Shown here: piece by piece, positions 5,445 to 19,374 of the stretch | Numbering within the stretch: position 1 is the stretch's first letter | Layout: every line of letters begins with the position of its first letter | Assembly (NCBI RefSeq): GCF_014192715.1 | Contig: NZ_JACHYH010000001.1 | Span: 372,001-436,000 of the forward strand | From: Luteibacter sp. Sphag1AF | Lineage (GTDB): Bacteria; Pseudomonadota; Gammaproteobacteria; Xanthomonadales; Rhodanobacteraceae | DNA: 64,000 bases | Direction: 5' to 3' | The notes under the pieces: model-generated | The model's database searches: none | What the model was told of the DNA's origin: nothing | The model's input: the letters and a program-made list of their open reading frames with translations, nothing else | Translations under genes and position numbers: made by a program

Positions 5445-6422
5445 TCAACCGCCCATCGCATGCATGGTGAGGGGACGATCCACCGGACCTGGATGCGCCG
5501 CGTAGCCCGCTTCTTTCAGCCATACCGCGCGGCGCACGCGCTCGCGCAATGCGGCATCGTCGTCACCCTCGCGAAGGAAGTGCCCCAGCGGGGTGCCGAC
5601 CGGCGAAAACAGGCAGGTATACAGCTCGCCCGTTGCCGTGATGCGCAGGCGGTCGCAGGTGGAACAAAACGGGTCGGACACCGTGGAAATGATGCCAAGC
5701 GGGTAATGACCGTCGATAAGAAACGGCGTAGCGGGGTCGCTTCCGCGTGGTTGCCGCTCTACCCGGTGAAACGGCGCGATGGCCGCCAGCATGTCTGCCT
5801 CGCTGACCACCTGCCCCCGCTGCCAGTGCCCCGGGGCGTCCAGCGGCATGTATTCGATGAAGCGAAGCGGCAGCTGGCGGCTCATGGCCCATTGCAACAG
5901 CGGCACGATGTCCTTTTCGTTGGCATCGCGCACCACCACGGCGTTCAGTTTGATCCGGGCGCCTGCCGCGACCAGCGCGTTGATGCCGTCGAGCACCGGC
6001 TCAACCGGCGCGCGGGTAAGCGCGCGGAAGGTTTCAGGGTCGATGGCATCCAGGCTGACGTTGAAGTCATCGACCCCAGCGTCCACCAGTTGCTGCGCGC
6101 GCGGCGCCATGCGCGAGGCGTTGGTCGTCATGGACAGGCGCTGGAGGCCACGCGCGCGCAGTGCCGAAATCGCCTGAACGCACTCGACCAGGTCCCGCCG
6201 CAGCAATGGCTCGCCGCCGGTCAGCCGAATCTGCGTGATGCCCTCGTCCACGAACAATCCGGCCAGGCGGACCACCTCATCCAGCGTCAGCACGCTTGAA
6301 CGCGGCAACCAGTCCGGATGCTCGGGCATGCAGTACGAGCAACGGAAATTGCAGCGATCCGTAAGGGATATCCGCAGTTTTCGCTTGCGTCGTCCGTGCT
6401 GGTCGGTCAGTTGGGCGGTCAT
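5445..6422 (-). CDS. moaA: GTP 3',8-cyclase MoaA (radical SAM)
   Basis: Radical-SAM enzyme that starts Mo cofactor synthesis from GTP. 325 aa from ATG 6422. The N-terminal cluster CNFRCSYC (CxxxCxxC), the LTGGEPLLRRD SAM motif, SMTTNA, and the C-terminal second cluster CSTCDRLRITATGELYTC are present, and the protein ends in the essential Gly-Gly (HAMGG). Two in-frame upstream ATGs (6440, 6491) are possible; none has a strong ribosome site, and the conserved family sequence begins at LRISLTDRCN, so the shortest was taken. First gene of the minus-strand moaA-D-E-CB-moeA cluster. The leader 6423-6669 was searched by eye for a Moco riboswitch without a convincing match. Confidence 0.95.
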   Translation of the reverse strand: MTAQLTDQHGRRKRKLRISLTDRCNFRCSYCMPEHPDWLPRSSVLTLDEVVRLAGLFVDEGITQIRLTGGEPLLRRDLVECVQAISALRARGLQRLSMTTNASRMAPRAQQLVDAGVDDFNVSLDAIDPETFRALTRAPVEPVLDGINALVAAGARIKLNAVVVRDANEKDIVPLLQWAMSRQLPLRFIEYMPLDAPGHWQRGQVVSEADMLAAIAPFHRVERQPRGSDPATPFLIDGHYPLGIISTVSDPFCSTCDRLRITATGELYTCLFSPVGTPLGHFLREGDDDAALRERVRRAVWLKEAGYAAHPGPVDRPLTMHAMGG

Positions 6423-6669
6423 TGTCTGCTCAGTGTGCATATCGGCCGTGAGAGCGTTGTTGGCGGCACTCACGCCGTGTATATCCGGCATCGTGCCAGA
6501 CTTGCCCCAAGAGCGTCGCGGCCTTGCCTGACTATCCGGGCAAAGACAGGGCAGGAAGCGTAAGCCCTGACCTTGCCGGTGCGTAAGCCGCGGCCTCTGG
6601 CAAGCTCTCACAGTCCAACGTCCCGGCAACACACCGCCATACTCCGGCAAGCCTCAACGGACGGATGCC

Positions 6670-7506
6670 ATGCACGACGCCAGCCCCTCCCGACTCGTTT
6701 ACCGACACCGCTGGCCCGTGCGCGTCATGCACTGGATCAACGTGGCATGCCTGCTTGCACTGCTGGGAAGCGGCCTGCAAATCTTCAATGCGCATCCGGC
6801 GCTGTACCTCGGGAACCGCTCGGACCCCGGGGCCGAAGTCCTGAAAATCGACGCGCAGCGCCAGGGTGACGGCCCCATGCGCGGCGTCACCCAGGTAGGC
6901 AGCGCCTCTTTCGATACCACGGGTGTGCTGGGCGTCTCACGCAGCAACGGACAGGAGCAGGCCCGCGCCTTCCCCTCCTGGGCGACGATTCCCGGCGCCG
7001 GCTGGCTGGCCATGGGGCGGCGCTGGCATTTCTTCTTTGCGTGGCTCTTCGTGATCAACGGGCTTTGTTACGTTGCCTGGTCTGTCGCCAGCCGGCATTT
7101 CCAGCGCGATCTTGTCCCCACGCGCCGCGACTGGCGCGGCATTGGCCGCTCCGTGCTGGACCACGTGCGCCTGCGCCACCCCGAAGGCGACGAGGCGCTA
7201 CGCTACAACGTGCTTCAACGCATTGCGTACCTGGTGGCGATCTTCATTTTCGGTGGCGGCATCGTGCTGATGGGGCTGGCCATGTCGCCCCGCATGGATG
7301 CGGTCCTGTCACCGCTGGTGGACCTGATCGGCGGACGGCAGACCGCGCGCACGCTGCATTTCATCATTGCCTGCGGCTTCGTCGCCTTCGTGGTGGTCCA
7401 CGTGGTGGAAGTGATTCTTACCGGCCCGATAAACCAGCTGCGAGGCATGATTACCGGCTATTACCGCGTAAAGAAGCAGCCACCGGAGGAGACACCGCAT
7501 GACTGA
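6670..7506 (+). CDS. Cytochrome b561-family membrane subunit
   Basis: 278 aa di-heme cytochrome b type integral membrane protein, like the b subunits of Ni/Fe-hydrogenase, thiosulfate reductase and MsrPQ-like systems. About four membrane segments: ~17-38 (VMHWINVACLLALLGSG), ~118-140 (RWHFFFAWLFVINGLCYV), ~185-210 and ~238-262. His in MHW, RWHFFF, LHFIIACG and VVHVVEV are candidate heme ligands. The stop overlaps the start of the following molybdoenzyme by 8 bases, so it probably passes electrons to or from that enzyme. Confidence 0.88.
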   Translation: MHDASPSRLVYRHRWPVRVMHWINVACLLALLGSGLQIFNAHPALYLGNRSDPGAEVLKIDAQRQGDGPMRGVTQVGSASFDTTGVLGVSRSNGQEQARAFPSWATIPGAGWLAMGRRWHFFFAWLFVINGLCYVAWSVASRHFQRDLVPTRRDWRGIGRSVLDHVRLRHPEGDEALRYNVLQRIAYLVAIFIFGGGIVLMGLAMSPRMDAVLSPLVDLIGGRQTARTLHFIIACGFVAFVVVHVVEVILTGPINQLRGMITGYYRVKKQPPEETPHD

Positions 7507-8254
7507 CCGTCGCCGTTTCCTGCGCCATACCGCCCTCGCGCTGGGCGGCGTCATCGTCACCGGCTGCGACCGCATCTCCGACAGCCAGACCGGCGAGCGT
7601 ATCCTCAGCCAGGCGGAGAAACTGAACCACCTTGCGCAAAAAATCGCCGCGCCCGGCGATGTGCTCGCCAAAGAGTTCACCGAGGCCGATATTTCAGCGG
7701 TATTCAAGCCCAACGGCAGCACCATGCCGGACACACCCGACTATCGCGCACTGCTGAACAACGCCTTCCGCGACTATCGCCTCGCGATAGGCGGCATGGT
7801 GGAACGGCCGGCGCTGTTATCCATCAGCGACCTTCGCGCGCTGGGCATGCGTACCCAGATCACCCGGCACGACTGCGTGGAGGGCTGGAGCGCTATCGGC
7901 AAATGGACCGGCACGCCGCTTCGTCAGGTGATGGACTTTGTGCGGCCGCATATGCGCGCCCGCTATGTGGTTTTTCACTGCTACGACGAGTACGAGGAAG
8001 GCACGCCGTACTACGAGAGCATTGATCTTGCCGAAGCCCGCCACCCGCAAACCCTGCTTGCCTACATGCTCAACGGCCATGATTTGCCGGTACAGAACGG
8101 CGCCCCCCTGCGCCTGCGCGTAGAGCGGCAACTCGGTTACAAGCACGCCAAGTACATCCGCAGCCTTCAATTCACCGACTCTTTCGCATCCATCGGCGAC
8201 GGTAAAGGCGGGTATTGGGAAGACAATGGATATGAGTGGTACGCAGGAATCTGA
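7499..8254 (+). CDS. Tat-exported molybdopterin-dependent oxidoreductase (sulfite-oxidase/MsrP fold)
   Basis: 251 aa. The N terminus carries a twin-arginine motif (RRRFLRH) and then a lipobox VTGC at residue 23, so it should be a Tat-exported lipoprotein. The Mo-ligand region ITRHDCVEGW (Cys about 126) followed by GKWTGTPL, HCYDEYEEG, LAYMLNGHDLP and PLRLRVERQLGYKHAKYI are hallmarks of the sulfite-oxidase-type Moco domain. It is translationally coupled to the cytochrome b gene and lies beside the Moco biosynthesis genes. Substrate unknown; methionine sulfoxide or another S/N-oxide reductase activity is plausible. Confidence 0.9.
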   Translation: MTDRRRFLRHTALALGGVIVTGCDRISDSQTGERILSQAEKLNHLAQKIAAPGDVLAKEFTEADISAVFKPNGSTMPDTPDYRALLNNAFRDYRLAIGGMVERPALLSISDLRALGMRTQITRHDCVEGWSAIGKWTGTPLRQVMDFVRPHMRARYVVFHCYDEYEEGTPYYESIDLAEARHPQTLLAYMLNGHDLPVQNGAPLRLRVERQLGYKHAKYIRSLQFTDSFASIGDGKGGYWEDNGYEWYAGI

Positions 8255-11321: not shown

Positions 11322-12005
11322 ATGCGCCTGACCCCAGGCAGCGTCATTGCATGCAAAGCCCTGCTGTTCGACATGGACGGCACACTGATCGACTCGCGCA
11401 TCGCGGTCGAACGCATATGGAAAGCCTGGTGCGATGAGCACGGCGTCGACTGGCACTACGTGCTGCCTCGGCTGCATGGCGTGCGCCTCGCCGACTCGGT
11501 ACGCAGTTTCGCTCCGGCAGGCGTCGATATTGCAGTGGAAACAGCCCGGCTATATCAGCTGGAGCTCGAACAGACCGACGGCATCGTTCCCATCCCTGGC
11601 GCGCACGAGCTGCTGGCATCACTGCCGGCCGACAAGTGGACCATCGTCACCTCGGCGGATCGCGAGCTGGCCCATGCACGCTTGCAGAGCGCGGGAATCG
11701 CGCCGCCTCCGCTCATGGTGTGTGGTGACGACGTGCGCGAAGGGAAGCCTGATCCGGAAGGCTACATGGAAGGCGCACGGCGCTTTGGCGTCGCACCGGC
11801 CGATACGCTTGTTTTTGAAGACGCGGCAGCGGGCATTGATGCGGGATTGGGCGCAGGTGCGCGGGTGATTGCCATAGCAGGCGACCATCCCGAGGAATTG
11901 CGCGACGGTGTGGAGTGGGTCACGGACCTTCGCACACTGCGCTTTGCTGGTATCCGTGACGGACTGGTGGAGCTGGCCGTGGTGGAGTCTTCTGCCGATC
12001 AGTAA
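11322..12005 (+). CDS. HAD-superfamily (IA) sugar-phosphatase-like hydrolase
   Basis: 227 aa. Motif I LLFDMDGTLIDS with the nucleophile Asp, motif II TIVTSADRE, the Lys of motif III in VREGKPDPEGY and motif IV VFEDAAAGIDAGLGAGARVI are all present, with a helical cap between motifs I and II. This pattern matches glycerol-3-phosphatase and hexitol/2-deoxyglucose-6-phosphatase enzymes. It is convergent with the flavoreductase and overlaps its 3' end by 7 bases. Substrate not predictable. Confidence 0.9.
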   Translation: MRLTPGSVIACKALLFDMDGTLIDSRIAVERIWKAWCDEHGVDWHYVLPRLHGVRLADSVRSFAPAGVDIAVETARLYQLELEQTDGIVPIPGAHELLASLPADKWTIVTSADRELAHARLQSAGIAPPPLMVCGDDVREGKPDPEGYMEGARRFGVAPADTLVFEDAAAGIDAGLGAGARVIAIAGDHPEELRDGVEWVTDLRTLRFAGIRDGLVELAVVESSADQ

Positions 12006-13588
12006 ACATCCCGGCGATAGCGACCGGCTTCCAGCAGCGTGTCCACCATTGCGTCTCCCAGCGATTCGCGCAGCGCACTGTCCACGGCAGGCGCCATGCC
12101 TGCCAGACTGCCGCAAACGTACAGGCTGGCGCCTTCGGCCACCCACGTGCGCAACATGGGCGCATTCGCACGCAGGGCATCCTGCACGTAACGCCCCGCC
12201 CCACCGTCACGCGACCACACGAGATCCAGTTGCGCGATGTCACCCGCGTGCTGCCAGCGCTCCAGCTCGTCCACATGAAGACGATCCACCGCCGCCTGTC
12301 GCTCACCGAACAGCAACCAGTTGCGCCGGTGTCCACGCGCCATGCGCTGCTTCAGAAGTGCACGAAGACCGGCAATGCCCGTGCCATTACCTATCAGAAT
12401 GACTGGCCGATCATCAGACGGCGCGTGAAAACCCGGATTGCGCCGTACACGTGCATCCACCCGCCCGCCTACGGAAACATGCTCGGTCAACCAGCCCGAA
12501 CCCAGGCCACTTGAGCCATCCGCGCCGCGCTGCTGACGAACGACCAGATCGAGCGATCCATCCGCAGGAACCGATGCAATGGAATACTCCCGATGTGGAA
12601 GCGCACTCAGCGTCGGCAGCCACGCCGCCACAGGCATGCCACGCACGGAAGCCGGTTCGGGCAGGTGCATGGACGCCAGCGCTGCAAGCAGCGAAGCGTC
12701 CGGCGCAACGCCCGCCTGCTCTGTCCAGCGGCGCAATACAGCGTCACCGTGCTTCGGACCTACTTCAAGAATGTCACCGGCCTGCCAGTCCAGCGCCGCC
12801 AGATCGTCCGGCACCAGCGACACGTGAAAGCACGGCAGCCCCTGACTGCCCGCATTGAGCAACTGGCGCGCGTTCACCCGCCACGCACCGTATGCGGGAC
12901 GCTGCCAGTCCGGCAGCTCGGCATTGCCACTCAGCTGGCGCAGCTGGTCCTGCCAGTGACGCAAGGCACCGTCGTCACCGTTATCCACATCCACCCGGTC
13001 AAAGAGGGCCGTCGCGCCGGAGGCATGCAGCCAGTGCTCGAGATCACGCCCGAAGGCGCAGAAATCCTCGTAATCGCGATCACCCAGCGCAAGGATGCCG
13101 TAATGCAGGTGCGACAGCGCACGCGGAGAGCTCATCAACGCGCGCTGGAAGCCCACGGCGCTGTCGGGCGCATCGCCCTCGCCGGTGGTGCTTACAACGA
13201 ACAGCGCACGCGTGTGTGCACTCAGCATGGCGCTATCCAGCTCACCGACGGCGCAGGTGACGACGCCAAGCCCGGCGTCGCGCAGGGCATCTGCCGTGCG
13301 GTGGGCAAGCTCAGTGGCGAAACCGGTCTGCGAGGCGTGCACCACAAGTACCTGCGACACGCCTGCCACGGTTGCCTGCACAGGACGTGCGACCGGCGCG
13401 CGCCGCATCAGTGCAGCGGTGCCCGTTACCCAGAGGATCGCCGCAGCAAGCGCCCAGCCAATTCGCTCACCGTCGTGAGTGATGGCCAACATGCTCGCGG
13501 CATGCCATCGCCACAGCACAACGGCGACAACGAGCAGGCCCGCGCCAATGAGCGATTGCCCCACCCAGGCACGGCGCTCCGCTGTCAC
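11999..13588 (-). CDS. Membrane-anchored flavodoxin/NADPH reductase (CysJ-like)
   Basis: 529 aa. Two N-terminal membrane segments (~10-28 and ~42-60), then a flavodoxin domain (~75-215; LVVHASQTGFATELA, VVSTTGEGDAPDSA, GILALGDRDYEDFCAFG), then a ferredoxin-reductase module with the FAD motif REYSIAS, the NADP-binding ILIGNGTGIAGLR and YVCGSLAGMA. The order is that of CysJ/P450-reductase-type diflavin enzymes, so it should move electrons from NADPH through FAD and FMN at the membrane. The start overlaps the apbE stop by 4 bases. Likely cytosolic electron source for the cluster. Confidence 0.9.
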   Translation of the reverse strand: MTAERRAWVGQSLIGAGLLVVAVVLWRWHAASMLAITHDGERIGWALAAAILWVTGTAALMRRAPVARPVQATVAGVSQVLVVHASQTGFATELAHRTADALRDAGLGVVTCAVGELDSAMLSAHTRALFVVSTTGEGDAPDSAVGFQRALMSSPRALSHLHYGILALGDRDYEDFCAFGRDLEHWLHASGATALFDRVDVDNGDDGALRHWQDQLRQLSGNAELPDWQRPAYGAWRVNARQLLNAGSQGLPCFHVSLVPDDLAALDWQAGDILEVGPKHGDAVLRRWTEQAGVAPDASLLAALASMHLPEPASVRGMPVAAWLPTLSALPHREYSIASVPADGSLDLVVRQQRGADGSSGLGSGWLTEHVSVGGRVDARVRRNPGFHAPSDDRPVILIGNGTGIAGLRALLKQRMARGHRRNWLLFGERQAAVDRLHVDELERWQHAGDIAQLDLVWSRDGGAGRYVQDALRANAPMLRTWVAEGASLYVCGSLAGMAPAVDSALRESLGDAMVDTLLEAGRYRRDVY

Positions 13589-14601
13589 GGCTTCTGTGCT
13601 GCCGCGAAGGCCGGCGACATGCGCTCTTCAAAGCCGTTGTCCCCGTAAATCACGAAAAGCACCGCGATATCGTGCTGCGTCGCGTACGCCATGCCGTCTT
13701 CGGGACCGAGGACCGTCATGGTGGTGCCCAGTGAATCGGCATGCATGCAATCGGCGGCAATAATGCTGACCGATGCGATGCGGTGCTTCACGGGGTATCC
13801 CGTGCGCGGGTCGATGTGGTGCGAAAACACCTTGCCGCCCGTCTCGAAGAAATGGCGGTAGTCGCCCGACGTGGCGATGGCCCGATCATCCAGTGAAATG
13901 ATCCGCTCTATCTGATCCACGCCAGCGGCCGCAGAAGCGGCGCCCGGACGTTCGATGCCCACATGCCAGGACGAACCATCCGGCTTGCGGCCATGGGCGC
14001 GCAGTTCGCCACCCACTTCCACCAGATATGCGTGCACGCCCTGCGCATCCAGCCAGCGCGCCACCTGGTCAACGCTGTAACCTTTGGCCACCGAAGACAG
14101 ATCCACGTACACACCACCGGGCTGCCGTGCACGACGGCCCGCCGGGTCCAGCGTGATGCGCTGCCAGCCCACACGCTGCTTCGCCGCCGCAATGGCTTCC
14201 GGCGTGGGTATGTCGTGGGGATGGCGGTCGGGGCCAAAGCCCCACAGGTTGACCAGCGGACCCACCGTCGGGTCATACGCGCCACCCGACGACGACGCGA
14301 GTTGCAGCGCGTAGGTCAGCACGTCAAAGAATTCGGGAGGCAGCACCTGCCAGGTGCCCGCCGGCGCGTTGTTGAAACGGCTGAGGTCGGACTGCGGCTT
14401 CCAGGTGCTCATCTGCAGATCGACCTTGTCGACCTCGGCCTGGATGCCCTTGCGGATGTACTCCGGGTCGGTCCCCTCGGGCATCACGGCATTCACTGAC
14501 CAGGTGGTGCCCATGACTTCGCCTTCAAACCGGCGCACATCCGTGGCCGTGGCAACGAAGGGAAGCAACAGGGCGGCACAAAGAAGGATCAGGCGTTTCA
14601 T
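13585..14601 (-). CDS. apbE: FAD:protein FMN transferase ApbE
   Basis: 338 aa periplasmic enzyme that covalently attaches FMN from FAD to Thr in [ST]GAT-type motifs of target proteins. A signal peptide (LILLCAALLLPFVATA) has no lipobox, unlike many ApbE lipoproteins. Conserved blocks: VMGTTWSVN, YDPTVGPLVNLWGFG, VDLSSVAKGYSVDQVARWL, VEVGGELRAHG, IATSGDYRHFF, SHHIDPRTGYPV and ADSLGTTMTVLG. ATG 14601 begins the signal peptide. It lies downstream of a strong terminator that follows the DUF4198 gene, so readthrough or its own promoter must feed apbE and the reductase. The likely target is the DUF2271 protein of the same cluster. Confidence 0.95.
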   Translation of the reverse strand: MKRLILLCAALLLPFVATATDVRRFEGEVMGTTWSVNAVMPEGTDPEYIRKGIQAEVDKVDLQMSTWKPQSDLSRFNNAPAGTWQVLPPEFFDVLTYALQLASSSGGAYDPTVGPLVNLWGFGPDRHPHDIPTPEAIAAAKQRVGWQRITLDPAGRRARQPGGVYVDLSSVAKGYSVDQVARWLDAQGVHAYLVEVGGELRAHGRKPDGSSWHVGIERPGAASAAAGVDQIERIISLDDRAIATSGDYRHFFETGGKVFSHHIDPRTGYPVKHRIASVSIIAADCMHADSLGTTMTVLGPEDGMAYATQHDIAVLFVIYGDNGFEERMSPAFAAAQKP

Positions 14602-14619: not shown

Positions 14620-14661
14620 AGGAATAAAAAACCGAAGCCGCGCTCCGGGCGCGGCTTCGGT
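14620..14661 (-). terminator. Rho-independent terminator between DUF4198 and apbE
   Basis: A 12 bp perfect stem (ACCGAAGCCGCG at 14631-14642 with its complement at 14650-14661), a 7-base loop and, on the minus strand, a run of six T directly after. It would partly separate pepSY-DUF2271-DUF4198 from apbE and the reductase. Confidence 0.85.
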
Positions 14662-14671
14662 TGCATGGCAC

Positions 14672-15481
14672 TTACTGCGGAAGCACTTCCAGCGTGGCGG
14701 TATAGCCAAGGCGACGCTGTTTGGCTTCCTTGAGGCTGGTGTGGGTGTCTTCAGCGCTGGCGTTGACCCAGTACATGCCCGCGCTCGGGAACGTGATGGT
14801 GAAGTTGCCATCCTTGTCGGTGGTGGTGTCCATCTCGTCCTGCGCGTTGCGATAGCGCGTGGCACCGTTGATGGCGGCCACCTTCACGTTAGCGGCCGGC
14901 TTGCCGTCCACCACGAGTCGGAACTTCGCCGGCTCGCCCACGGCCAGGTCATTGGGATGGGTGACCGGAACCAGCTCCATGCCAACGTTGGTGAGCTTCA
15001 GCGCACCCGTGCTCGGCGAGCCCTGGGTCACGAAGGTTTCCACACGCGATGCCATTTCGCTGACCTGCACGTTCTTCGCGCCCGCCGGAATGGCGGTCTT
15101 GAATTCGTCGGCCTTGCCGCGCCAGCGCTTCTTCTGGCCGTCCATCTCGTAGTTGGCGAACAGGCCCTGATTTACCAGCGCGATGCGGTAGGTACCCTTC
15201 TGCGGCACGGGCAGGTCGAACGTACTGCGGTACTTGCCGGTGGCGGAATTCTCCGGCTTCACCACCGTGCCGTCGGGCGCGGTGATGACCAGCTGATCGA
15301 GCTGTGCCGGGAAGTGATCCGGGTAGTACAGATCATTGGAGATAGCCGCATCGACAGTCACCCAGGCATCATCGCTGGACAGCACGGTGGAGGACGGAAC
15401 CATCCACATCTTGTGCGCATGCGCGGCGACGGGAAGGATCAGTGCAAGCGCGAGAGCCGCGCGCAGAGCGGAAGTTTTCAC
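14672..15481 (-). CDS. DUF4198 periplasmic protein
   Basis: 269 aa with a Sec signal peptide ending in VAAHAHKMWMVPSS; the His right after cleavage and the HKMW start are typical of DUF4198 proteins. The remainder is beta-rich with two Ig-like parts (QLDQLVITAPDGTVVKPE; EPAKFRLVVDGKPAANVKV, DKDGNFTITFPSAGMYWVNAS). DUF4198 is often found near metal or heme uptake and redox genes, but its biochemical role is not established. It is third in the Fur-box operon, 30 bases after DUF2271. It carries INGATRY, which lacks the acidic and Ser positions of an ApbE site. Confidence 0.85.
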   Translation of the reverse strand: MKTSALRAALALALILPVAAHAHKMWMVPSSTVLSSDDAWVTVDAAISNDLYYPDHFPAQLDQLVITAPDGTVVKPENSATGKYRSTFDLPVPQKGTYRIALVNQGLFANYEMDGQKKRWRGKADEFKTAIPAGAKNVQVSEMASRVETFVTQGSPSTGALKLTNVGMELVPVTHPNDLAVGEPAKFRLVVDGKPAANVKVAAINGATRYRNAQDEMDTTTDKDGNFTITFPSAGMYWVNASAEDTHTSLKEAKQRRLGYTATLEVLPQ

Positions 15482-15511: not shown

Positions 15512-16024
15512 TCAGGGATTGAGGTCGAGACTGATAAGGCCGAGTTCGTCCTTGCCCTGCGCGCTGAGATGCGCGGAAGCCTTGACCGGCCACTCGAACG
15601 GAATGCGCTGCATTTCACGGCCACCCACTTCACGCGCGGCCTCCACTACCAATTCGTACTTGCCGGGCGGCAGCGTGCCGAGCGGCGCCTTGCCGTCAAC
15701 AAACTTCAGCTGGTGCTGGCCGGCCGGGCGCGTCGCGCCAGACACGCCGTCGATGGGCATGGTCTGTTCGCGTCCCGTGCGACGCCACCACTGGCGCATG
15801 TCCTTCAGCCACTTGGTGCCTTCGCCATCGGCCTTCTTCACGTCGTACCAGACCGCCAGATTGGCAGCGACCGTGTGGTCTTCGCGCTCCAGCCACACGG
15901 CGACATACGGACGGTGGTATTCGGCCACCTTCAGGGTGGGAATTTCCACAGTGATGTTCATGTCGCCGGCAACGGCCGTAGCGGACACGGCAAAACAGGC
16001 GACAGCGAATGCAATACGACGCAT
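15512..16024 (-). CDS. DUF2271 periplasmic protein with ApbE flavinylation motif
   Basis: 170 aa with a signal peptide (AFAVACFAVSATAVAG). The domain pattern (MNITVEIPTLKVAEYHRPYVAVWLE, KWLKDMRQWW, LPPGKYELVVEAAREVGGRE) is the DUF2271 family, a small beta-sandwich. Residues 92-98 read DGVSGAT, an exact D-G-x-S-G-A-T site of the kind on which ApbE places FMN via a phosphoester to the Thr (Thr98 here). The protein should therefore be a periplasmic flavoprotein electron carrier. Its gene stands 10 bases after the PepSY membrane gene, upstream of apbE. Confidence 0.88.
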   Translation of the reverse strand: MRRIAFAVACFAVSATAVAGDMNITVEIPTLKVAEYHRPYVAVWLEREDHTVAANLAVWYDVKKADGEGTKWLKDMRQWWRRTGREQTMPIDGVSGATRPAGQHQLKFVDGKAPLGTLPPGKYELVVEAAREVGGREMQRIPFEWPVKASAHLSAQGKDELGLISLDLNP

Positions 16025-16034
16025 GGAATCCCCT

Positions 16035-16655
16035 TCAATGAATAAACAGCAGAATCAAGATCAGTGGCAGCACGAGTCCCAGGGCCACCATCGGCCAGGT
16101 GGCACCGCGCTGCGCGGCATGCATCTTCAGCAGGAACAGGCCCGTGATCGCGAAGATCAGGCAGGCAAGCGCGAAGATGTCGATAAACCAGCTCCACACA
16201 GGACCGGTGTTGCGCCCCTTGTGCAGATCATTGAAGTACGACACCCAGCCGCGATCGGTAAGCTCGTACTCCACCTCGCCGCTCTCGCGCTGAATGCTCA
16301 GCCATGCATCGCCGCCGGGGCGCGGCAGGGCGAGATAGATTTCGTCCTCGCTCCAGTCCGCATCGCGACCATTCAACGAGACGTGCCATTGCGACTGGAT
16401 CCATTCGCGCACAGGCGCGGGAAGCGGCGCGGACTTCTGCCGGGCATCCAGAGTTGCCAGCAGCGCGGGCGGCAGCGTGGCCTGTCGATGGTCCACGCGC
16501 GGCTTCGCCTCGATGCTGCCCGCGTGATTGAGCGTAAAGCCCGTCATCGCGAACAGCACCAGCGCCAGCAGGCAGACCGCCGAGCTGATCCAGTGCCACT
16601 GATGCAGGTGTTTGAGCCAGAACGCGCGGCGTTGCCGGTCGACGGTATCGCGCAT
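16035..16655 (-). CDS. PepSY-associated transmembrane protein
   Basis: 206 aa. An N-terminal membrane segment (~22-42, HQWHWISSAVCLLALVLFAMTGF), a periplasmic region of ~110 residues, then two close C-terminal segments (~155-175 WFIDIFALACLIFAITGLFLL and ~187-205). The HLHQWHW, FNDLHKGR and LLKMHAA histidines are in positions often used for heme in PepSY-TM proteins. It would connect the flavoreductase inside with the flavinylated DUF2271 protein outside. First gene of the operon, about 37 bases after the predicted transcription start. Confidence 0.88.
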   Translation of the reverse strand: MRDTVDRQRRAFWLKHLHQWHWISSAVCLLALVLFAMTGFTLNHAGSIEAKPRVDHRQATLPPALLATLDARQKSAPLPAPVREWIQSQWHVSLNGRDADWSEDEIYLALPRPGGDAWLSIQRESGEVEYELTDRGWVSYFNDLHKGRNTGPVWSWFIDIFALACLIFAITGLFLLKMHAAQRGATWPMVALGLVLPLILILLFIH

Positions 16656-16698: not shown

Positions 16699-16729
16699 AT
16701 ACTAGAAGAAATGCGAATGACTCGCAATC
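16699..16729 (-). promoter_or_regulatory. Promoter with overlapping Fur-box-like dyad for the PepSY/DUF2271/ApbE cluster
   Basis: On the minus strand TTGCGA (16727-16722), a 17-base spacer and TAGTAT (16704-16699) make a good sigma70 promoter. The -35 lies inside the dyad ATTGCGAGTCATTCGCAT (16728-16711), close to the Fur-box form seen upstream of iron-uptake genes in xanthomonads. Iron-dependent repression is inferred. The rest of the gap 16730-16968 shows no gene, only possible weak promoter hexamers for the plus-strand gene at 16969. Confidence 0.65.
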
Positions 16730-16968: not shown

Positions 16969-19374
16969 ATGGAGCCATGGGCAAAACGTTTTTGTGCGCT
17001 GGTTTTTGTATTCATTGCGCTGGTCGTTTCGATGAGCGTAGCCAGTGCCCTGATTTCCTGGGTGTACAACGTTCGGCATCCGGTGCATGGCCCCCTGATG
17101 ACCTTGGTGCTCTGGAACAACCTCAGCGCCCCCAACATCAAACCGATCGCCACCGGCCTTCTCTGCTGGAGCCTTGCGGGCTTCCTTCCCACGCTGCTGC
17201 TCTTCGCGTGGCTGGGCTGGCAATTGCACGACTACCAGCGCACTTGCTGGCCGGCCCCGGTTCCTCCGTTTGCAAAGCCGCGCCTTCGCGAGTGGATGCG
17301 GCAAGGCCAGCGCAGAGGCAGCATCGCCATGGGGTCACGCTTCGGACAAAATCTGTTCGCGCCGGAGACGGCCTCGGTGCTGGTGGCAGGACCTCGCCTG
17401 AAGGGCCTGGCGCTGATGGCCACGCTGCGGCATGTCGATGGCCCGGTGCTGGTCATCGACACCGATAGCGTCACTTATAAGGCAACGGCGCAATGGCGTG
17501 CCGCCCGTGGAGACGCGGTGGTGAGTGTCATGCCCTTCGGCGGTGGCCATGCGTGGAATCCGCTGCGGCAGGCGTGGACACCGCATGGCTGGGATGACGA
17601 GGCGTTACGGCAACTGGCCGCGCATTGGTATCCCGCCACGTCGTCGCGACATCCTTTGCTTGCCAGTCAGGTCCGCCATGCCTTCGTGACGCTGATTTAC
17701 GCGCTGGACGACGTGCTGCATGGAGGGGACGAGCCGGGCACCGTCGTCTCGCTGACTGACCTGTGTCGGGTGTGCCGTGCGTGCGAGGATGATCCGGATC
17801 ACCGCCCATTGAGGATGCTGGCCGATCATCCGGGGCTGAAGCCTTCCACGCGCGATGCCCTCCAGGAGTGGCTTGCCCTGGACTCAGCTTCCCTCGCCAG
17901 GGTCTGGCAGGAACTGCGCGAGCCGCTGGCACCCTTTGCGCCGCGTCACGCGGACAGCGATGCCGTGGACCGCTGCGGGAATGTGTTTGCACGTCGCGAT
18001 CCGCGCCGCACGACGCTCTACCTGCATATCCCCGCCGACCGGCGTCGGGGCGCGTCGCGGGTGATCGACACCTTCGTTGCCCAGTGGCACGCGCACCTGC
18101 ACCACCACGATCCCCAGGCCCGGCCGCTGGTCGTGATCCATCAGCTGGAGGGGTTCGGTCGCCTGAACAGCCTGACCCACGGCTCGCACACGTTGCGCTG
18201 GCTCGCCACCGTCGAAGGGCTGGAAGATTTGCAGGCGGTCTACCACCGAACCACGCCGGAGGTGATGCGGCGCTTCAGCCGATGCGTGGTGCAGGCGCCC
18301 TCCCATCTTGCCGGGGCCGAGGCGCAGAGGGCGGCACTGGACGTGTTTCACGACGCGCATGTGGCCCAGGGGGCCAGCCGGGCGTCCTTTGGCCTGCCCA
18401 CGTCCGCCGAGCTGATGACCCTGCGTCGACGTCAGCAAGTGATCACCGGCCCCGGTATTCGCCAGGCGGTACTCAGCCGCACGCCACGGTACCCCCCACC
18501 GTTGTCACCGCCGCCTCATGTTCCCGGAGAACCCATGCCCCTGCCCAAACCGCTCATCGCCCTTGTCGCTTCCCTGATGGCGGCATGCACCACCTCCCCC
18601 GTGCCGATCAACGACACCACGGGGCCGAACCCGTGCGGCGCCCGTCCGCCCGCGCGGCGTCCGGGGAATCAGATGCTGGAGGCGTGTCTGGGAAGGCAGC
18701 GCTTTCAGCTGCCCAAAAACCTGTTCAATTGGCAGGACGGTCAGGATGATCGGGACATCCTTTACCTCGCTTTACGCTGGCCCGCCATGCAGCCAATACC
18801 GATGGGCGTGGATTTTCACGACGACCCGGAAACGTATTTTTCAACGCTGCAGATAACGGTCGTACACGAATCACGGCGAACGGACGAAGGGTATCGAACC
18901 ATCATGATGACATCGATCCAGCCGATGAGTCAGGATGATCCGGAGCAACGCGACAATCCGGCCTGGAATCTGGATATGCGCATCAAGGGTGAGCCGGTCC
19001 ACGGGCTGACGCCGTACTACGCAAACTTCGACAAGATCAAGGCGCACTATACGAAATATCACGGCCCCAATAGCCGCGCTTCCGAGCCGGAAAACAACGA
19101 TGACTGGTTCGTGCAGCTCGATAGGGAAGGTATTCCCACCACGTTCATCCGCTGCTCTTCGTACCTCTTCCCGGATGGTCTGCATATCGAACAGGGGCGT
19201 GTCATCGATGACATCGAGCGCGACGGTCGCCGGTCCAATTGCACTCACGAGTTTTTGATTCCTGAGTACAAAGCCCATGTCTCGATCGCCTACATGCGCG
19301 TGTTGCTGCCGTACTGGGCGCAGTTTGAAGCGCATGTTCGTGCACTGCTCAAGAACGCCGAGGTCCATGCATGA
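16969..19374 (+). CDS. Degenerate VirD4/TraG-like coupling protein fused in frame to a lipoprotein domain
   Basis: 801 codons with no stop. Residues 1-~515 follow the VirD4 plan: two N-terminal membrane segments (~8-32, ~62-86), VLVAGPRLKGLAL where Walker A should be (~138-149), VLVIDTDSVTYKATAQWRAARGD and AWNPLRQA matching the VirD4 DIKGE(N/L)Y and NPL segments, a helical insert (~205-330), VVIHQLEGFGRL where VirD4 has the Walker B DEF...LG (~388-399), and a C-terminal LMTLRRRQQVI...RYPPP like the VirD4 end. Both ATP-binding motifs are lost, so it is probably a pseudo-ATPase. Residues 523-801 are a separate lipoprotein-like domain. GAGG precedes ATG 16969. The last 4 bases overlap the effector gene. 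Confidence 0.8.
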   Translation: MEPWAKRFCALVFVFIALVVSMSVASALISWVYNVRHPVHGPLMTLVLWNNLSAPNIKPIATGLLCWSLAGFLPTLLLFAWLGWQLHDYQRTCWPAPVPPFAKPRLREWMRQGQRRGSIAMGSRFGQNLFAPETASVLVAGPRLKGLALMATLRHVDGPVLVIDTDSVTYKATAQWRAARGDAVVSVMPFGGGHAWNPLRQAWTPHGWDDEALRQLAAHWYPATSSRHPLLASQVRHAFVTLIYALDDVLHGGDEPGTVVSLTDLCRVCRACEDDPDHRPLRMLADHPGLKPSTRDALQEWLALDSASLARVWQELREPLAPFAPRHADSDAVDRCGNVFARRDPRRTTLYLHIPADRRRGASRVIDTFVAQWHAHLHHHDPQARPLVVIHQLEGFGRLNSLTHGSHTLRWLATVEGLEDLQAVYHRTTPEVMRRFSRCVVQAPSHLAGAEAQRAALDVFHDAHVAQGASRASFGLPTSAELMTLRRRQQVITGPGIRQAVLSRTPRYPPPLSPPPHVPGEPMPLPKPLIALVASLMAACTTSPVPINDTTGPNPCGARPPARRPGNQMLEACLGRQRFQLPKNLFNWQDGQDDRDILYLALRWPAMQPIPMGVDFHDDPETYFSTLQITVVHESRRTDEGYRTIMMTSIQPMSQDDPEQRDNPAWNLDMRIKGEPVHGLTPYYANFDKIKAHYTKYHGPNSRASEPENNDDWFVQLDREGIPTTFIRCSSYLFPDGLHIEQGRVIDDIERDGRRSNCTHEFLIPEYKAHVSIAYMRVLLPYWAQFEAHVRALLKNAEVHA
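18535..19374 (+). CDS. Putative immunity lipoprotein, internal start within the fusion frame
   Basis: An in-frame ATG at 18535 preceded by GGAGA (18526-18530) would give a free 279 aa protein. It begins MPLPKPLIALVASLMAACTTS, a typical lipoprotein signal with LMAAC as lipobox (Cys18). The body has no recognised domain, with ILYLALRWPAMQPIPMG, TTFIRCSSYLFPDGLHIEQG and a helical end. Lipoproteins placed directly before XVIPCD effectors are usually the cognate immunity proteins that protect the periplasm. A signal sequence buried in the middle of a membrane protein would make little sense, so separate translation is likely. Base composition looks a little less GC-rich than its neighbours. Confidence 0.55.
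   Translation: MPLPKPLIALVASLMAACTTSPVPINDTTGPNPCGARPPARRPGNQMLEACLGRQRFQLPKNLFNWQDGQDDRDILYLALRWPAMQPIPMGVDFHDDPETYFSTLQITVVHESRRTDEGYRTIMMTSIQPMSQDDPEQRDNPAWNLDMRIKGEPVHGLTPYYANFDKIKAHYTKYHGPNSRASEPENNDDWFVQLDREGIPTTFIRCSSYLFPDGLHIEQGRVIDDIERDGRRSNCTHEFLIPEYKAHVSIAYMRVLLPYWAQFEAHVRALLKNAEVHA

Follow-up and report, generated by a model that had tools for sequence, protein, structure and literature searches.

The window, a stretch of 64,000 nucleotides, encodes a small protein of the DUF2271 family close to a gene for ApbE, and the question that it raises is whether this protein receives a covalently bound FMN and, if it does, what the flavin is used for. The original prediction had taken it to be an FMN-bearing electron carrier of the periplasm, on the strength of a short motif and the neighbouring apbE. 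We now think it roughly 85% probable that this protein carries FMN in the periplasm as part of a PepSY-like ferric reductase under iron control. The genes concerned form a compact group on the minus strand, in the order PepSY, DUF2271, DUF4198, ApbE and flavodoxin/FNR reductase (Table 1); the start given for ApbE is our choice, as its open frame opens further upstream.

Table 1. Coordinates of the cluster and its motifs, counted from the first letter of the window
Feature	Position	Strand	Domain match or remark
Fur-type palindromic box ATTGCGAGTCATTCGCATT	16710..16728	-	55-73 bases upstream of first gene
PepSY_TM_like_2 membrane protein	16035..16655	-	PF16357 E 2.2e-85
DUF2271 protein, predicted covalent-FMN carrier	15512..16024	-	PF10029 E 8.8e-53
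DGVSGAT, ApbE recognition motif, predicted acceptor Thr98	15731..15751	-	codons 92-98
DUF4198 protein	14672..15481	-	PF10670 E 3.6e-55
ApbE, FAD:protein FMN transferase	13585..14601	-	PF02424 E 4.7e-92
Flavodoxin + NAD(P)H-binding reductase	11999..13588	-	PF00258 E 1.3e-23, PF00175 E 5.8e-8

The DUF2271 gene starts with ATG and encodes 170 amino acids, of which residues 22–162 match PF10029 at 178.1 bits (cut-off 27.3). The family assignment of the original prediction thus held, as did its placing of DGVSGAT, which we located in the translation, and its claim that apbE shares the cluster: the PF02424 match lies two genes downstream. That a DUF2271 protein with an ApbE motif is encoded in an apbE cluster is therefore confirmed. 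Searched for as degenerate DNA on both strands of the 64-kb window, D-G-x-[ST]-G-A-T matched once, within the DUF2271 gene, and 100 shuffled sequences gave a mean of 0.03 matches, three of them containing one. This low expectation, together with the presence of Thr or Ser at the acceptor position in all 73 DUF2271 sequences described below, rules out a chance string. The form of the motif was predicted somewhat too narrowly: DGVSGAT fits it, but its Gly at the second place lies outside the motif D-x-x-[S/T]-G-A-[S/T] that a review gives for recognition (PMC12052999). Gly at this place is common in DUF2271, and two DUF2271 alignments, one of 9 and one of 38 sequences, show no variation at D92 and T98. 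A hydrophobic stretch at the N-terminus (residues 4–22) and the Pfam description lead us to predict a periplasmic location. An AlphaFold2 model built with 38 sequences was beta-rich (mean pLDDT 78.4, pTM 0.74). A Foldseek search of the PDB with this model returned no match at E <= 0.001, with TM-scores below 0.5 in the best 50 of 612 rows, so we describe the fold only as beta-rich; when the DUF2271 profile was run against the PDB, its two matches were weak and fell on designed proteins. An NGAT string in DUF4198 was considered as a second flavinylation site and rejected, as it was not conserved among the commonest forms of 140 DUF4198 sequences.

To follow the motif beyond the window, we used 73 DUF2271 sequences, namely the window protein and those of loci found in profile searches; the 71 genomes represented include 20 of Luteibacter. 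Two sub-threshold partial matches (L068 and L069), whose frames lack the motif, were dropped before counting; G371, whose partial match lies at the edge of a contig, and other sub-threshold DUF2271 matches also stand outside this set. A locus was called apbE-linked when a profile seeded with the window protein found a match within about 6 kb on each side, where the contig allowed, or within 5 kb in a set of 80 named loci. The acceptor position was occupied by T in 61 sequences and by S in 12, and one or the other was kept in all 53 apbE-linked and all 20 unlinked proteins. The original prediction depended on conservation of the motif in orthologues that also carry apbE. Here the outcome was divided: 33 of the 53 apbE-linked sequences fit D-x-x-[ST]-G-A-[ST] and 20 depart from it, but none of the 53 has lost the acceptor. 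As the departures spare the acceptor, the idea of flavinylation survives, but conservation does not extend to the exact motif; with 20 of 53 linked loci departing, the strict motif was discarded as a definition of ApbE clients. Weak PF10029 matches, mostly to profile positions of about 60–115, recur in frames of mostly 220–260 amino acids and may represent another family with a similar loop.

The same counts bear on the reading that SGAT is a structural turn that receives no flavin in the window protein. The motif is short, its acceptor is kept even in the 20 loci with no apbE nearby, and its strict form is lost in 20 of 53 linked orthologues, all of which such a turn would accommodate. We nevertheless regard it as very improbable. 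The 17 unlinked loci (of 20) that lie in genomes tested for ApbE all have an apbE elsewhere in the genome, and DUF2271 and apbE track each other across the genus (see below). The modelled motif falls outside helices and strands of at least three residues, where the confidence of the model is lower. A relative is flavinylated at the motif Thr: DUF2271 was identified as an ApbE substrate by Meheust et al. 2021, who co-expressed the DUF2271 protein of Amantichitinum ursilacus with its ApbE and saw in a gel under UV light that it became flavinylated, a modification that a Thr-to-Ala substitution abolished (PMC8238504). The experiment that accompanied the original prediction has thus already been done on a relative. 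Flavinylation of the window DUF2271, the reading supported by the shared domain, motif form, linked apbE and usual partners, would by analogy extend to this protein, and the motif is very probably functional.

Profile searches of the window genome found a single DUF2271 and a single ApbE, both in the cluster. The profiles for FMN_bind, DUF3570 and NQR2_RnfD_RnfE matched nothing there, so that DUF2271 is the only detected client of this ApbE. Deletion of either gene should accordingly report on one flavinylated pathway alone. Among 23 Luteibacter genomes, 20 have both genes and three have neither, one of the three (G007) being only 80% complete. In 41 genomes of relatives, ApbE was found in all 26 that have DUF2271 and in 11 of the 15 that lack it. 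A second set gave ApbE in 29 of 29 genomes, with the qualification that it overlaps the 26 relatives in two genomes (G031 and G039) and that in another member (G194) the DUF2271 match falls short of the threshold.

The departures from the strict motif were not uniform. Of the 20 apbE-linked departures, 11 carry Pro in place of Ala, giving GPT, SPT or QPT (L055, L057, L074, L075, L086, L088, L090, L092, L096, L106 and L109), while Pro occurred in 0 of the 20 unlinked sequences; counted by genus, this is 9 of 27 linked versus 0 of 15 unlinked (p 0.016). In the 80 named loci, which are the closest 80 of at least 579 confirmed ones and include repeats of some Luteibacter genomes, Pro was present in 9 of 69 linked loci and in one of the 11 unlinked ones. 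The single unlinked case (L218), whose contig stops about 0.7 kb past the gene, is the one row against a strict link between Pro and apbE. The window DUF2271 keeps Ala.

Pro was also distributed unevenly with respect to FMN_bind proteins. It was present in 11 of the 23 tested DUF2271 genomes without FMN_bind and in 0 of the 30 with it (Fisher p 1.8e-5, by genome), in a post hoc test for which part of the genomes had been picked after the Pro rows were seen, all 11 Pro genomes being included. Counted by family, the only correction made for kinship, the figures were 5 of 8 without FMN_bind versus 0 of 15 with it (p 0.0017), one two-state family being left out. The search for FMN_bind covered 53 of the 71 genomes of the 73-sequence set; the remaining 18 genomes (16 Luteibacter, G654 and G666) have no Pro. 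As FMN_bind alone was looked for in other genomes, DUF2271 is shown to be the sole client in none of them. The distribution suggests that the motif is strict where ApbE serves clients of the FMN_bind (NqrC/RnfG) type and loosens elsewhere. Substitution of the Ala by Val in another ApbE client cuts flavinylation to about half (PMC12052999), and Pro may therefore need an adapted ApbE. We offer, at somewhat less than even odds, the proposal that ApbE and DUF2271 co-evolve, such that without FMN_bind clients D-G-x-[ST]-G-A-T drifts to D-G-x-[ST]-x-P-T with ApbE adapting. If the pattern holds, it would mean that the target motif of a modifying enzyme loosens as its clients become fewer, and it would provide a wider motif for the prediction of flavinylated proteins.

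ApbE residues 22–332 align best with the solved FMN transferase 5mgy (E 4.1e-71), and among 122 ApbE sequences (some genomes being present twice) S245, H261 and D289 are conserved at 98%, 98% and 97%; we read these residues as the probable catalytic Asp-Ser-His described in a review (PMC12052999). The PepSY protein also matches PF03929 (E 8.5e-9) and has three hydrophobic segments. Its histidines H21, H145, H179 and H44 are present in 99%, 100%, 90% and 86%, respectively, of 136 PepSY sequences, which likewise include some genomes twice. Such near-invariance is as expected for haem ligands in FoxB-type proteins, and by analogy the protein is a putative haem-bearing transmembrane electron conduit. 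No PDB chain matched its sequence with an E-value of 1 or less, so the assignment of haem rests on published relatives and on these histidines. DUF4198, with a hydrophobic N-terminal stretch at residues 1–19, is probably a secreted partner. The reductase has hydrophobic segments within residues 7–61 and most resembles cysJ among NCBIfam models (224 bits against a cut-off of 668); it is likely the electron donor.

This set of partners is a usual one: all 80 named loci have DUF4198, 79 of them have PepSY and 71 have the reductase. Two kinds of gene fusion occur in distant clusters. ApbE and DUF2271 are joined in a single open frame in two of them (L083:5368-6867 and L137:5591-7063), and in three others (L058, L062 and L065) PepSY, flavodoxin and NAD-binding domains belong to a single polypeptide, the electron route proposed for two separate proteins of the window. 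Steps of the proposed pathway are thus linked physically. In the L083 fusion, the motif has drifted to EGYARAT. Between DUF4198 and apbE of the window lies a terminator-like hairpin of 14 pairs followed by a T run (14630–14662, minus strand), which could leave apbE and the reductase less strongly expressed than the first three genes. Hairpins of this kind were found in 10 of 109 intervals, some genomes being counted twice, versus 0–1 in five shuffles; two of the ten are from Luteibacter (the window and L113), and at this frequency the hairpin is not conserved. Beside the cluster, an open frame of 801 amino acids (16969–19374) has no Pfam match at E 0.001; our impression is that it starts like a membrane-anchored coupling-type protein.

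We propose that these proteins would act in the following way. ApbE, after export, would split FAD and join the FMN moiety to Thr98 of DUF2271. The flavodoxin/FNR protein would draw electrons from NAD(P)H, and these would cross the membrane via the histidine-rich PepSY protein, probably with the aid of haem, to the FMN on DUF2271, which would then reduce a periplasmic acceptor, either Fe(III) or a ferric siderophore. That DUF4198 might dock or bind the iron complex is a guess. The flavin and electron-carrier role of DUF2271 are thus put forward as presumptive, and so are the haem of PepSY, the direction of electron flow, iron as the acceptor and control by Fur.

Iron regulation is suggested by the palindromic box upstream of the PepSY gene. 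This was the only match in the window at one mismatch or fewer, and 100 shuffles gave none. A 15-base core of the box occurred near the PepSY frame, exactly, in 20 of 53 related loci versus a shuffle mean of 0.03, and with one mismatch in 33 of 53 versus 1.3; the core pattern was derived after some of the same regions had been viewed, and many of the 53 loci are Luteibacter. Conversely, 33 of the 53 loci have no exact core at this place and 20 have none even with one mismatch, and since the stretch searched was placed by the open frame, sites may be missed. The genome that contains the window has four exact box sites, and a reversed control pattern had none. One of the three others precedes a gene for a TonB-dependent receptor with Plug and barrel domains; its listed open frame begins before the box, and a later true start is presumed. 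This is the only one of the three with an obvious iron gene behind it. From the translations, we take the second to lie between short-chain-dehydrogenase-like and regulator-like frames, and the third near lpxC- and ftsZ-like frames, where the box is possibly due to chance. Compared with the Fur consensus, ATTGCGAGTCATTCGCATT matches at only 11 of 19 places. We infer that the upstream box is a candidate Fur site.

A flavinylated DUF2271 could also work outside iron reduction, for instance as the reductant of a periplasmic oxidoreductase. Among the neighbouring genes scanned, which were a part of the neighbours, we found no TonB receptor, iron transporter or VIT1, and about 4–5 kb away lie a molybdopterin oxidoreductase gene and one that we take to be cytochrome b-like, both of which would suit such a task. 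The former is an Oxidored_molyb protein (PF00174; 7499–8254, plus strand) that forms a redox pair near the cluster with the frame at 6670–7506 (plus strand), presumably the cytochrome b-like one from its translation; what appears to be a MoaA-like frame on the minus strand opens the 5445–8254 region. We consider this alternative unlikely, because the Fur-like box is shared with a TonB receptor gene and because related clusters respond to iron. Fur represses PepSY-like clusters in Shewanella and Caulobacter (PMC8238504). In Caulobacter, two iron-homeostasis mutants up-regulate an operon (CCNA_03155-03159) that encodes a flavin-dependent reductase, PepSY, DUF2271 and DUF4198, and fitness in EDTA falls when this operon carries insertions (PMC11870441). 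In Alteromonas, DUF4198/DUF2271 pairs are found only near iron-responsive TonB receptors and are themselves raised under iron limitation (PMC7190382). By analogy with these other genera, the carrier of a ferric reductase is the role that we favour for the window DUF2271.

The locus may finally be set against the systems that it most resembles. PepSY-like clusters with ApbE, in which DUF2271 was counted in 2833 and DUF4198 in 1500 cases, have been argued to serve iron reduction and assimilation (PMC8238504), and Huang et al. 2024, who show a DUF2271 protein as modelled by AlphaFold, consider PepSY a haem-bearing conduit through the membrane (PMC11334425). DUF2271 is an established ApbE client, and the window accordingly adds one more example, in an apparent Luteibacter; among the matches listed in a literature search on Luteibacter, iron and siderophore, no title concerned a PepSY-DUF2271 system. 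The part that might be new is the Ala-to-Pro drift, which a narrow look at the literature, figure logos excluded, did not find in print; the word 'proline' is absent from PMC12052999, and evidence of flavin binding by GPT proteins was not found. The window protein resembles the A. ursilacus DUF2271 in its Pfam domain, in an [ST]GA[ST] motif with a Thr acceptor and in a cognate apbE in the cluster; it is likened to that protein by domain, motif and cluster, whereas flavinylation was demonstrated there by gel. With the FoxB siderophore reductase of Pseudomonas aeruginosa, a PepSY protein, the Luteibacter PepSY shares conserved histidines (PMC11334425, PMC12424826), but it has no sequence match to any PDB chain at the threshold given above. 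The Caulobacter operon CCNA_03155-03159 has the same flavin-dependent reductase, PepSY, DUF2271 and DUF4198 (PMC11870441); it belongs to another bacterial class, and expression and fitness data exist for it where the window offers genes. The PepSY-like flavinylation system as described (PMC8238504, PMC11334425) has PepSY of the PF16357 type, DUF2271, DUF4198 and ApbE in common with the window. Three transmembrane helices characterise its PepSY-like protein (PF03929/PF16357), and secreted DUF4198 is a frequent but not a universal member. Here the scanned neighbours lack the VIT1 and TonB receptor genes, and the NAD(P)H module, including PF00175, is on the separate flavodoxin-FNR protein and not on PepSY; the PepSY-borne version belongs to a subset of clusters and is not required. 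The window locus is, in sum, an ordinary member of this known system, already explained in print.
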